Shown: positions 12,581 through 15,965 of the stretch, one piece after another | How positions within the stretch are numbered: position 1 is the first letter of the stretch | How the letters are laid out: each line of letters begins with the position of its first letter | DNA from: a virus | DNA: 22,811 bases | Strand: one strand, 5' to 3' | Virus record (IMG/VR): IMGVR_UViG_3300044641_008523 | Coordinates: 1 to 22,811 of that record | Translations under genes and position numbers: made by a program | The notes under the pieces: model-generated | Seen by the model: only the letters and a program-made list of their open reading frames with translations | What the model was told of the DNA's origin: nothing | Database searches by the model: none

Positions 12581-12904
12581 TCACTTCTCCGCATTTACAT
12601 ATCTAGCGAATAACAAAGAATTTCGCTCTTTCTTTTTTAAAATAACGTCTTCTTTTGACGGTCTCCATCCATTTTTCCATTTTTCTAAATTTAGTTCTGC
12701 GAAATTATCCTCACATGCTCTACAACACCCTACTCTCTCGTAAGCTTCCATATCTATGCTAGACGCGAAAAAACACTCGCATACTTGACAGTATGATAAA
12801 ATATCTGCTTCTTTTCTTTCATATATAAACTTCGCATCTTTTTCAAGCCCAAACGTAAGAGTCCGGGCCTTGTTTCGTAATTTCGATGATGTTGTCGACC
12901 GCAT
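12581..12904 (-). CDS. small zinc-finger-like protein, 107 aa
   Basis: The frame begins at ATG 12902-12904 inside the last 62 bases of the Rad50-like frame; no in-frame ATG, GTG or TTG allows a start after that stop except one past the first cysteines, so the long overlap is probably real. Residues about 38-66 contain YCQVCECFF and GCCRACEDNF, four cysteines arranged as two CxxC pairs about 18 residues apart plus extra cysteines, typical of a zinc ribbon or treble-clef finger. The N-terminus is basic (RSTTSSKLRNKAR) and the C-terminus Lys/Arg/Glu-rich. Such small proteins can bind nucleic acid or RNA polymerase, but nothing here decides it. It ends three bases before the next gene. Confidence 0.72.
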   Translation of the reverse strand: MRSTTSSKLRNKARTLTFGLEKDAKFIYERKEADILSYCQVCECFFASSIDMEAYERVGCCRACEDNFAELNLEKWKNGWRPSKEDVILKKKERNSLLFARYVNAEK

Positions 12905-14054
12905 CTTTTACCGCATCCACGTGTGATATTACTATAATTGTCTTGAAAAATCTCTTTAAGGAAACAAGAAGTCGATTACAAGCCTCGACATTTACTTCGT
13001 CGAGTGCTCCGAATCCTTCATCGATAATCAACATATCGGTCTTAGGAAGAGATGAAACATTAATGAGCGCAACTCGAATAGCAAGAGAAGCCATCATTTT
13101 CTCCATACCAGAACCGAGTTCTATTGGACGTTGCGAATCGCCATAGTCTAAATTTATTTCCAAATCGTTTCCATTTGAAACTAAACCTACCGTAAATCCA
13201 CAAACACCCTGAAGTATCGATGAAATTTCTTGATTAATTCTTGGTAACTGTTGTGTTAAGACTACTTGTTGTAGTCCGTTCTTACCATACGCTTGAATTA
13301 GTAGTTCATATAACTTCCATAATCTTGAATTCTTAGAATACTCTTCTTTATCTTTTTGATTTTTTTGTAGCGATGATGTCTCAGATCCTATCGATCGTTC
13401 GGTCCTTAGTAAAGACGCCTCGGAATCTCTTAATGCCACGGAAACTTTTCTTAATTCTTCTTCTGTTTCAAAAATTAAATTCTCAGTTTCGTCTCCAACT
13501 AGGTTTAATTGCATTTCGATTATTTTCTCTTCGATTTCTTTGATTTTCTTAATAGTCTCTAGAGACTTCGCGGCGTATGAATTTTTTTCGACGTGTAATG
13601 AACTGGAGTTTGAACTTAAATTTATTTCTTCTCTCAGAATTCTCTCATATTTTTCAATTTTTGTTTCCAAAGATTTCGATTTGATATCAGCAATAGTATC
13701 ATTTGCTTCCTGTAATTTCTGAGACAGTCCTTCGATTACTTGTCGTTGACTCTCTATAAGAGTCTTATCACGATGGGAGTCTCTAATAAACTTACAAGTT
13801 GGAAACTGGTCACCGCAAGGAACATCTCGTAATTTAGAAACAGAAAGTTCTTGTTGTCTGAGCTTTTCTTTTTCCTTCTCGAGTTCGGCTGATAGTTTGG
13901 CTTCATTTAATTCAAACAACCTTAGAGAATTAAGCTCTTCTCTCAAGACTTCAACAGATACACTATTTTTAAACGTCTTAATTTTTTCCAGTCGAACATT
14001 CGAAAGTTCGATTTTTTCTTCTATCTCTTCGATCTTCGCGTCGTAGTTTTGCAC
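12843..14054 (-). CDS. 46: Rad50/SbcC-like C-terminal half (T4 gp46 family), separated by an in-frame stop
   Basis: The first possible start is GTG 14052-14054, but the frame is open without a break up to 14186, just after the TAA that ends the Mre11-Rad50 N-terminal frame, and both are in the same reading frame. From the GTG the product is 403 aa: coiled coil to about 75, a hook-like turn VPCGDQFPTCKFI (78-90), the returning coiled coil (about 95-270), then the ATPase C-lobe with signature ELGSGMEKMMASLAIRVAL, Walker B DMLIIDEGFGALDE and KTIIVISHVD. No Shine-Dalgarno precedes the GTG. Partner of Mre11 in double-strand break processing and recombination-dependent replication. Either a separate subunit made by reinitiation, a readthrough product, or the tail of a gene broken by a nonsense change. 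Confidence 0.8.
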   Translation of the reverse strand: MQNYDAKIEEIEEKIELSNVRLEKIKTFKNSVSVEVLREELNSLRLFELNEAKLSAELEKEKEKLRQQELSVSKLRDVPCGDQFPTCKFIRDSHRDKTLIESQRQVIEGLSQKLQEANDTIADIKSKSLETKIEKYERILREEINLSSNSSSLHVEKNSYAAKSLETIKKIKEIEEKIIEMQLNLVGDETENLIFETEEELRKVSVALRDSEASLLRTERSIGSETSSLQKNQKDKEEYSKNSRLWKLYELLIQAYGKNGLQQVVLTQQLPRINQEISSILQGVCGFTVGLVSNGNDLEINLDYGDSQRPIELGSGMEKMMASLAIRVALINVSSLPKTDMLIIDEGFGALDEVNVEACNRLLVSLKRFFKTIIVISHVDAVKDAVDNIIEITKQGPDSYVWA

Positions 14055-14186
14055 AAGCTTTTGAAGTGTAGATAATTCTTTCTTTTTAACTTCAACGTCA
14101 GATTGTGTGTATCCAGATTGTTTTTTAACTGTAGCTAAATTGATTCGAAGATTTATTTCCTTATCCTTATAGTCGCTTATCTTTTT

Positions 14187-14189
14187 TTA
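14187..14189 (-). other. in-frame TAA interrupting the Mre11-Rad50 fusion
   Basis: The frame reads GCC CTA TAA AAA AAG ATA AGC. Codons on both sides are in one frame and encode continuous Lys/Glu-rich coiled coil (QLNIEKKAL, stop, KKISDYKDKEINLR). TAA ends at least eight other genes here, so the code is not altered. A single base substitution (for example from CAA, GAA or AAA) would explain it; an indel would not. Confidence 0.9.
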
Positions 14190-15965
14190 TAGGGCTTTCT
14201 TCTCGATGTTTAGCTGTAAAATCTTATCTTCGCAATCTGCGATAGCGACGTCATAGTTTATATTCGCGCCAACTTTTAGTGAAGACTTGATGTTATGTGA
14301 ATCTTCTTTTAGCTTAACTAGAATCTGTTCAAATATTCCTAAATCCAAAAAGTTATTTAATAACTTCTTTCTATCAGTCGCTCCGTTTTTAATAAACATA
14401 TTCATTTCGCCTTGCGAGGCAAAAGAAGTTAATAAGAAATCTTCAGATTCTCCGATTAATTGCCGGAGAGCCTTATCGGAATCGCGGCGTTGCTCGCCAG
14501 AAATATCTTCAATAATATCTCCAGACTCGTCGATCCTAAAGAGATTCATTTTCGTATTCGCGCCAAGACCACGGGAATTACTCCACTTATGCGACATTCG
14601 TTCGACTTTATAATGATTCCCGTTAAGCTCGAACTCTACTTTTACTTCGCAATCTCCCTTTCTTGCGTTAATCACGTGCAAGTTGCTTATAGAACCTCGA
14701 TCAGTATCATTGAACAAAGCGTACATGATTGTTCCAGGTATGGATGACTTACCACATCGATTTGTTCCAAACAACCCGATAATACCTTCTAGACTAGAAA
14801 AATCGATTTTATTACCCTTTCCATAAGAAAAAGTATTATCCCATTCTAAACTTTTTATTGACCACTTTGTGTTTCTATTATTTTCGATGCTTTCGAATGA
14901 ATGGATGACACTAGATACGATGGAATCTACGCTGTCCCATTCCTCATCAGATAATTTATTTTTACCGCAAAATTCCCTAAGCGCGTCGAAATGAAACTTT
15001 TCGTCTCTAAGCGAGGCTTTTTCTATGTTATTTTCACCGATAACAATATTACTAGGCGGTGGCAATTCATTAATTTTCCAAGCAATCTCTTCGGGAAAAA
15101 GAGAAGATTTCACCAAAAATGAAAATTTTTTGATATCGTCTTGCGAAATGCTCTCATTCGACACAATTCGAATTCGACAATTTTTAGAAAATTTTTCGCA
15201 AGATCCAAACGTCAAATCAGGCGTACCTTCCCAGTCTACGTTGTAGAATGGATTAGGAGAAGGTACGATTCGTCTAACTGATGAGTACTCGTCTCTCGAT
15301 TTAATATTCCACAGCAAATATCCTTTTTCAATATCTTCTGCGAAATCTTGTTGTATCGTAGAACCAGGGTAAGCAAATCTTTCGTGTTCATCAAGATATT
15401 GAAATTTATGAATGTCGCCAAACATTCCGAAATCGTAACCTTGAAATAATGACATATCACGCTCGCCTTCTACCTCCCACCCAACATCTGTCTTGGCTTT
15501 TTTTATAGCGCCGTGAAAAAGACAAATATTAAGCTTTCCGCTAATTGGACTTACGGAATGCCAATTTTCTTCGTCGAAACAACTAAAATTAGTCCATACA
15601 GTATTAAACTCTTTATCTGTCCACTGGCATGTATCTCTAAGATAAACGATTCTATCGTTATTAAGCGTTTCGATAATCGGAGTTATCGTATCTAGTCGTG
15701 ATTTATTTAGAATCAATCCATCGTGATTTCCCAACGTAACGATAGTCGGAGCGACTTCTGCTAAGGCGGTGAACCACCAAGTTAATTGTTTAATCAATTC
15801 GGGAGATATTCCCATCGTTTTTGTATGTACGATATCACCCGCCACAACAATTCTATCGACACGTTGAGATTTCGCGTCTGCTAATAAATGTGAAAATACC
15901 TCTCGATATTCTCCGTGACGCTTCAATCCTCTCCAGTGAATATCTGCAATATGACAAACTTTCAA
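14187..15965 (-). CDS. 47: fused Mre11/SbcD nuclease plus Rad50/SbcC N-terminal half (T4 gp47-gp46)
   Basis: Processes DNA ends for recombination. Residues 1-220 are a Mre11-type phosphodiesterase: HIADIHW (5-11, Asp8, His10), VAGDIVHT (41-48, Asp44), LGNHDG (78-83, Asn80, His81), LFHGA (149-153, His151), FGDIHKF (182-188) and YPGST. After a capping region to about 360, a second domain starts at SIKSLEWDNTFSYGKGNKID and carries the Rad50 Walker A FGTNRCGKSS (399-408) and the Q-loop region LLTSFASQGEMNMF, then enters coiled coil and stops at residue 592. T4 encodes nuclease and ATPase separately as genes 47 and 46; here they are one polypeptide. Start TTG 15963-15965 with AGGAG eight bases upstream, which overlaps the primase stop. 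Confidence 0.9.
   Translation of the reverse strand: MKVCHIADIHWRGLKRHGEYREVFSHLLADAKSQRVDRIVVAGDIVHTKTMGISPELIKQLTWWFTALAEVAPTIVTLGNHDGLILNKSRLDTITPIIETLNNDRIVYLRDTCQWTDKEFNTVWTNFSCFDEENWHSVSPISGKLNICLFHGAIKKAKTDVGWEVEGERDMSLFQGYDFGMFGDIHKFQYLDEHERFAYPGSTIQQDFAEDIEKGYLLWNIKSRDEYSSVRRIVPSPNPFYNVDWEGTPDLTFGSCEKFSKNCRIRIVSNESISQDDIKKFSFLVKSSLFPEEIAWKINELPPPSNIVIGENNIEKASLRDEKFHFDALREFCGKNKLSDEEWDSVDSIVSSVIHSFESIENNRNTKWSIKSLEWDNTFSYGKGNKIDFSSLEGIIGLFGTNRCGKSSIPGTIMYALFNDTDRGSISNLHVINARKGDCEVKVEFELNGNHYKVERMSHKWSNSRGLGANTKMNLFRIDESGDIIEDISGEQRRDSDKALRQLIGESEDFLLTSFASQGEMNMFIKNGATDRKKLLNNFLDLGIFEQILVKLKEDSHNIKSSLKVGANINYDVAIADCEDKILQLNIEKKAL

Follow-up and report, generated by a model that had tools for sequence, protein, structure and literature searches.

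When a reading frame is open from end to end except for one stop codon, does the stop point to an unusual way of making a protein, or does it mark a damaged or misread copy of an ordinary gene? The window analysed here, the whole 22,811-base stretch of an IMG/VR virus record, raises this question because a single minus-strand frame in it combines Mre11 and Rad50, which T4 keeps as two genes (gp47 and gp46, respectively), and the frame is interrupted by one TAA. An earlier note on this DNA had offered three options: a novel fused protein made with readthrough, a split protein whose two halves rejoin through the coiled coil, or a recent nonsense mutation or assembly error.

A fused Mre11-Rad50 frame and its relatives

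Head and packaging genes of T4-like type are clustered in the window (PHROGs assign a major head protein, head protease, portal and large terminase). A DNA primase and a RuvC-like resolvase are encoded there too, every one of these genes on the minus strand, and the Mre11-Rad50 frame sits on that strand between primase and terminase. The closest relative that we found across the site of the stop is L008, on a 175.6-kb contig. All window genes that can be compared with L008 and with a second relative, L091, align as single open frames, which speaks against gross assembly trouble. One related phage contig, L215 (PBIO01000013.1), is filed within a Halobacteriovorax metagenome-assembled genome; this is a weak host hint, and the contig may be misbinned.

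The frame was confirmed as described in the earlier note, which had left its strand unnamed; it is broken at one codon only (Table 1), and its TTG start has AGGAG 7 nt upstream. Aligned with L008, it is identical at 723 of 1041 positions with zero gaps, far beyond chance (protein identity 72.6% before the stop and 65.3% after it). The series of motifs running from the Mre11 nuclease to Walker B, also claimed earlier, is complete: the N-terminal metallophosphoesterase domain that characterises SbcDC fusions has all its motifs, and both Rad50 halves (Walker A on one side; signature and Walker B on the other) flank the coiled coil. Pfam and PHROG searches agree with this assignment (before the stop, Metallophos PF00149, E 4.4e-10, residues 1-116, and AAA_23, E 3e-10; after the stop, SbcC_Walker_B at 7e-5, below the curated cut-off; phrog_77, SbcC-like, on both flanks of the stop, 2e-23 and 5e-28). 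The hook has the spacing C-x6-C and not the classical C-x-x-C of the Rad50 zinc hook; among 152 full-length relatives, 101 have C-x6-C and 47 have C-x-x-C, three of the latter also having C-x6-C.

Table 1. Positions of the Mre11-Rad50 features in the window and of the split genes in related phages
Feature	Position	Strand	Basis
Whole Mre11-Rad50 (SbcDC, gp47-gp46-like) frame, 3123 nt, 1041 codons including TGA	12843-15965	-	gapless alignment with L008
TTG start; TGA end; one TAA as sole interruption	15965; 12843-12845	-	translation
Mre11 phosphodiesterase domain, about residues 1-260, motifs DIHW, GDIVH, GNHDG, HG, GDIH	15186-15965	-	Pfam Metallophos and model; boundary approximate
Mre11 capping and helix-loop-helix region, about residues 261-358	14892-15185	-	L008 model secondary structure; boundary approximate
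Rad50 ATPase lobe I, about residues 367-541	14343-14867	-	Pfam AAA_23
Walker A, GTNRCGKSS	14742-14768	-	translation
First coiled-coil arm, about residues 543-714, containing the TAA	13824-14339	-	model helices 543-567, 571-612, 621-668, 671-714
In-frame TAA, codon 593, in first coiled-coil arm	14187-14189	-	translation; L008 alignment
44 sense codons from the stop to the first standard start (GTG, codon 638, at 14054)	14054-14186	-	translation
Hook loop PCGDQFPTC, C-x6-C, residues 717-724	13794-13817	-	translation; inter-helix loop in model
Rad50 ATPase lobe II, about residues 898-1040	12846-13274	-	translation, Pfam, model
Signature, ELGSGMEKMMASLA	13080-13121	-	translation
Walker B/D-loop, Walker B DMLIIDEGFGALD	12996-13037	-	translation
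Split at shared Mre11 point	L044:1259-5420; L049:3810-7386; L061:3297-6529 (L068 is a copy); L248:2513-6070; L255:1027-5249		
Same Mre11 split point; in-frame TAG, then ATG within about 10 nt; no insert or extensions	L209:4932-8213		
Seventh split locus, about residue 252-271	L252:1484-5989		

We gathered approximately 250 loci by searching viral contigs with both halves of the gene and with its neighbouring genes. What the window lacks owing to its TAA, namely one uninterrupted polypeptide, was found in relatives: at least 152 loci, L008 the closest among them, carry an uninterrupted Mre11-Rad50 frame of about equal length (at least 111 clusters at 95% protein identity), and these were drawn from numerous independent metagenomes, with one in an isolate, Microcystis phage Mel-JY01. 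In the relatives, genes 47 and 46 are not separate, as an ancestral fusion would predict, and we conclude that the fusion is ancestral in this phage group; in a tree, the window groups with L008 (100/100) among the fused relatives. A second Rad50 was not found in six large related records searched with the AAA_23 model: five had one match each, inside the fused gene, and the L008 record had nothing above threshold, so that in this record the model misses even the known gene. As judged from sequence, the locus is thus a conserved single-chain Mre11-Rad50 (SbcDC) gene of T4-related phages.

An AlphaFold2 model of the L008 protein (alignment of 57 relatives; mean pLDDT 85, pTM 0.47) had its best solved-structure matches, by Foldseek, in Mre11-Rad50-Nbs1 (7zr1) and SbcCD (7yzp), with the nuclease part matching SbcD (7dog). 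Overall TM-scores were low, as can be expected where a long coiled coil bends freely, and it is chiefly the globular parts that carry the matches. The fold of this model is shared with bacterial SbcCD and eukaryotic Mre11-Rad50, but these are made of two chains and have a C-x2-C hook. Similarly, T4 gp47/gp46 have the same two domains in a T4-related phage setting, but as separate genes where the window has one frame.

Fusion of this type is not new. Mre11/Rad50 fusions of the Mimivirus R555 type were described in 2011 by Yoshida et al., and the part of that paper drawn on here reports fusion homologs to be abundant in aquatic viral metagenomes and assigns them to viruses (PMC3175470). By that description, R555 resembles the window in joining an N-terminal Mre11 to a C-terminal Rad50 in one chain; the internal stop belongs to the window record only, and the window's phage group, with its adjoining T4-related capsid, portal and terminase genes, is not resolved in the same part of the paper. 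An isolate example is the Mel-JY01 protein WWT39521.1 ('AAA domain containing protein'), a fused Mre11-Rad50 of 1066 aa (3201-nt gene) encoded directly after the DNA primase gene and sharing 29% identity with L008 across 99% of its length; unlike the window gene it has no internal stop, and it lies in a separate deep clade of the tree (L088). The fusion in the window is therefore real but of an already known kind (PMC3175470).

The stop at codon 593

A genome search also marked a single TAA within the open frame. In L008, codon 593 is GAA (Glu), one base away from TAA, and the two sequences share the flanking residues, Leu at 592 and Lys at 594; Glu is also the commonest residue in this alignment column (26 of 59 diverse relatives). 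From L008 and the column together, we infer that GAA was probably the ancestral codon in the window's lineage. None of the 207 loci (148 clusters) that are open across codons 570-640 has a stop at this site, so that the conservation expected of a programmed readthrough signal is lacking. In the L008 model, codon 593 falls within a helix (571-612) of the first coiled-coil arm, ahead of the hook loop (715-727), which agrees with the placement of the stop inside the coiled coil by the earlier note.

The age of the stop is not closely bounded, because the nearest record found to span codon 593 is L008, at 65-73% protein identity. No closer relative covering this codon was found in protein scans with the Mre11 half, the terminase, the primase and Rad50 lobe I, and a DNA pattern scan found no near-identical copies around the stop, although near copies may have been withheld from these searches. 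L089 and L090 are nearer to the window than L008 in terminase (90-91%); their contigs stop short of codon 593.

Downstream of the stop, the frame still looks like coding sequence: coding bias is 0.20 per codon in frame vs. -0.04 and -0.01 in the other frames, and pN/pS is 0.14 for lobe II vs. L008 and 0.28 over 362 codons vs. L090, although synonymous sites are near saturation in both comparisons and these selection figures therefore reflect a long history and not the time since the stop arose. The downstream part does not have the start and ribosome site of its own that a stable split gene needs. As claimed earlier, no standard start precedes the GTG at codon 638, and this GTG has no Shine-Dalgarno match before it. 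The sole restart candidate that we do not dismiss outright is an ATA at codon 604 with AAGGA 7 nt upstream.

Nine other genes of the window terminate in TAA, and we conclude that TAA is not recoded; a reassigned code is not what the window displays. UAA is also the least leaky stop in bacteria. The idea of a suppressor tRNA was dropped, as no tRNA genes were found in the window or in the 175.6-kb L008 relative.

A comparison within the same gene family indicates how such a stop may come about. Two contigs from different samples, L245 and L246, share 99.93% identity across 8585 bases; in the Mre11-Rad50 gene they differ by one base, which makes codon 1010 of L246 a TGA in place of TTA (L246:5861-5863), L245 being intact, and L246 has a second stop in a neighbouring gene, where five differences lie clustered (L246:1397-1445). 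Lone stops thus do occur in single contigs of this family, as mutations or assembly faults.

Genuine splits elsewhere in the family

Six phages (L044, L049, L061, L209, L248 and L255) have the gene divided at one shared point, which lies not in the coiled coil but inside the Mre11 domain, at about residue 197, between the GDIH and Y-x-G-S-x-x-Q-Q motifs. Except in L209, an acidic extension closes the first piece (e.g. IEMEIDEDDLEQYIKNGWEIIEE) and a basic one opens the second (e.g. MGKKIKVRKKTP). A putative homing-endonuclease gene, judged by eye, stands between the pieces in L044 and L255 (the intervening ORF of L044 had no significant Pfam family), and L248 has an apparent remnant of such a gene there; in L049 and L061 the pieces meet in a GTGA stop-start overlap. 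In a tree of the Rad50-side piece, the split phages are scattered: L044 groups with the unsplit L030 (100/100) and L049 with L061, and a different deep clade holds L248, L255 and L209. An Rfam scan of the window and of the split loci other than L248 and L255 gave no hit, so that no known intron family is present at the splits scanned.

These recurrent Mre11 splits look like mobile, endonuclease-linked splitting of a conserved gene, with matched docking ends. They recall nrdA of phage Aeh1, which is split by the homing endonuclease mobE within the gene (PMC2988022): in L044 and L255, as in Aeh1, an endonuclease gene (here a putative one, and in L248 an apparent remnant) lies in a critical region, and the gene is in two pieces. 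The window stop resembles neither, having no insert and no new start. More generally, the split loci carry their own starts and mostly end extensions, and in this the genuine splits differ from the window stop, which has neither.

A seventh split locus, L252, has approximately 1.35 kb of other ORFs between its pieces. Two further candidates, L076 and L082, were considered as breaks in Rad50; both start close to the end of a contig and are preceded by unrelated sequence, and they were set aside.

Origin of the stop and significance of the family

We regard it as very probable that the window holds a fused Mre11-Rad50 gene whose stop is private to one record and recent, having arisen either as a nonsense mutation or as an error in the metagenome consensus. 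Because the stop is seen in this record only, it is almost certainly a one-base mutation or a sequencing error and not a new way of making a protein; of the three options in the earlier note, the last is the best supported. Much less can be said for a stop that is real and maintained, with translation restarting near codon 604 or 638 and the two chains rebuilding Rad50 through the coiled coil. Both lobes do keep their motifs, a break in the coiled coil could be tolerated, the ATA at codon 604 has its AAGGA, and the family tolerates splits at other sites. Yet none of the 207 open loci is split in this region, a restart at GTG 638 would forgo the 44 conserved-frame codons, and where the gene is genuinely split (L044, L049, L061, L248 and L255) the break is at about Mre11 residue 197, the second piece has its own start and the pieces bear new end extensions. 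We therefore give the split protein proposed earlier a slim chance.

A chance slimmer still goes to programmed readthrough, or to a genetic code, of host or phage, in which TAA specifies an amino acid, either of which would yield the full fusion. Such decoding would account for a frame that is open on both sides of the stop and coding-like beyond it, but the nine TAA-terminated genes, the want of tRNA genes and the tightness of UAA tell against it, and with the stop missing from every relative nothing supports readthrough. Of the novel fused protein with readthrough that the earlier note had put forward, the fusion accordingly stands, and is ancestral; its novelty yields to the 2011 description (PMC3175470), and the readthrough falls away. 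That the fusion is itself an artefact, with separate genes joined by an assembly error, could be argued from the separate genes 47 and 46 of T4, but same-length fused frames in so many clusters and metagenomes, and in an isolate, refute it, and we give it practically no credence.

With a private, recent stop as the preferred reading, the normal product would be one protein of about 1040 residues, comprising the Mre11 nuclease and, directly after it, lobe I, then a coiled-coil hairpin with the hook, and lobe II. By homology, its proposed function is that of T4 gp47/gp46, and it may open and trim DNA ends for recombination-dependent replication. Comparison with L008 suggests that the stop arose in the first coiled-coil arm through a single base change, GAA to TAA. 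A genuine stop would end the product at residue 592 and leave it with Mre11, lobe I and a piece of one arm of the coil; as it would have no hook, signature or Walker B, a working ATPase is not expected, and from the known mechanism of the Rad50 ATPase this product should be unable to hydrolyse ATP in the manner of a proper dimer.

The stop itself carries little weight and is chiefly a lesson in reading single metagenome contigs. Of more interest is the gene that it interrupts, a member of a large one-chain Mre11-Rad50 family that is conserved in T4-related phages and in which most members have the unusual hook spacing. The family displays a natural split site inside the Mre11 nuclease domain, and its single chain of about 1040 residues could suit the study of communication between nuclease and ATPase.
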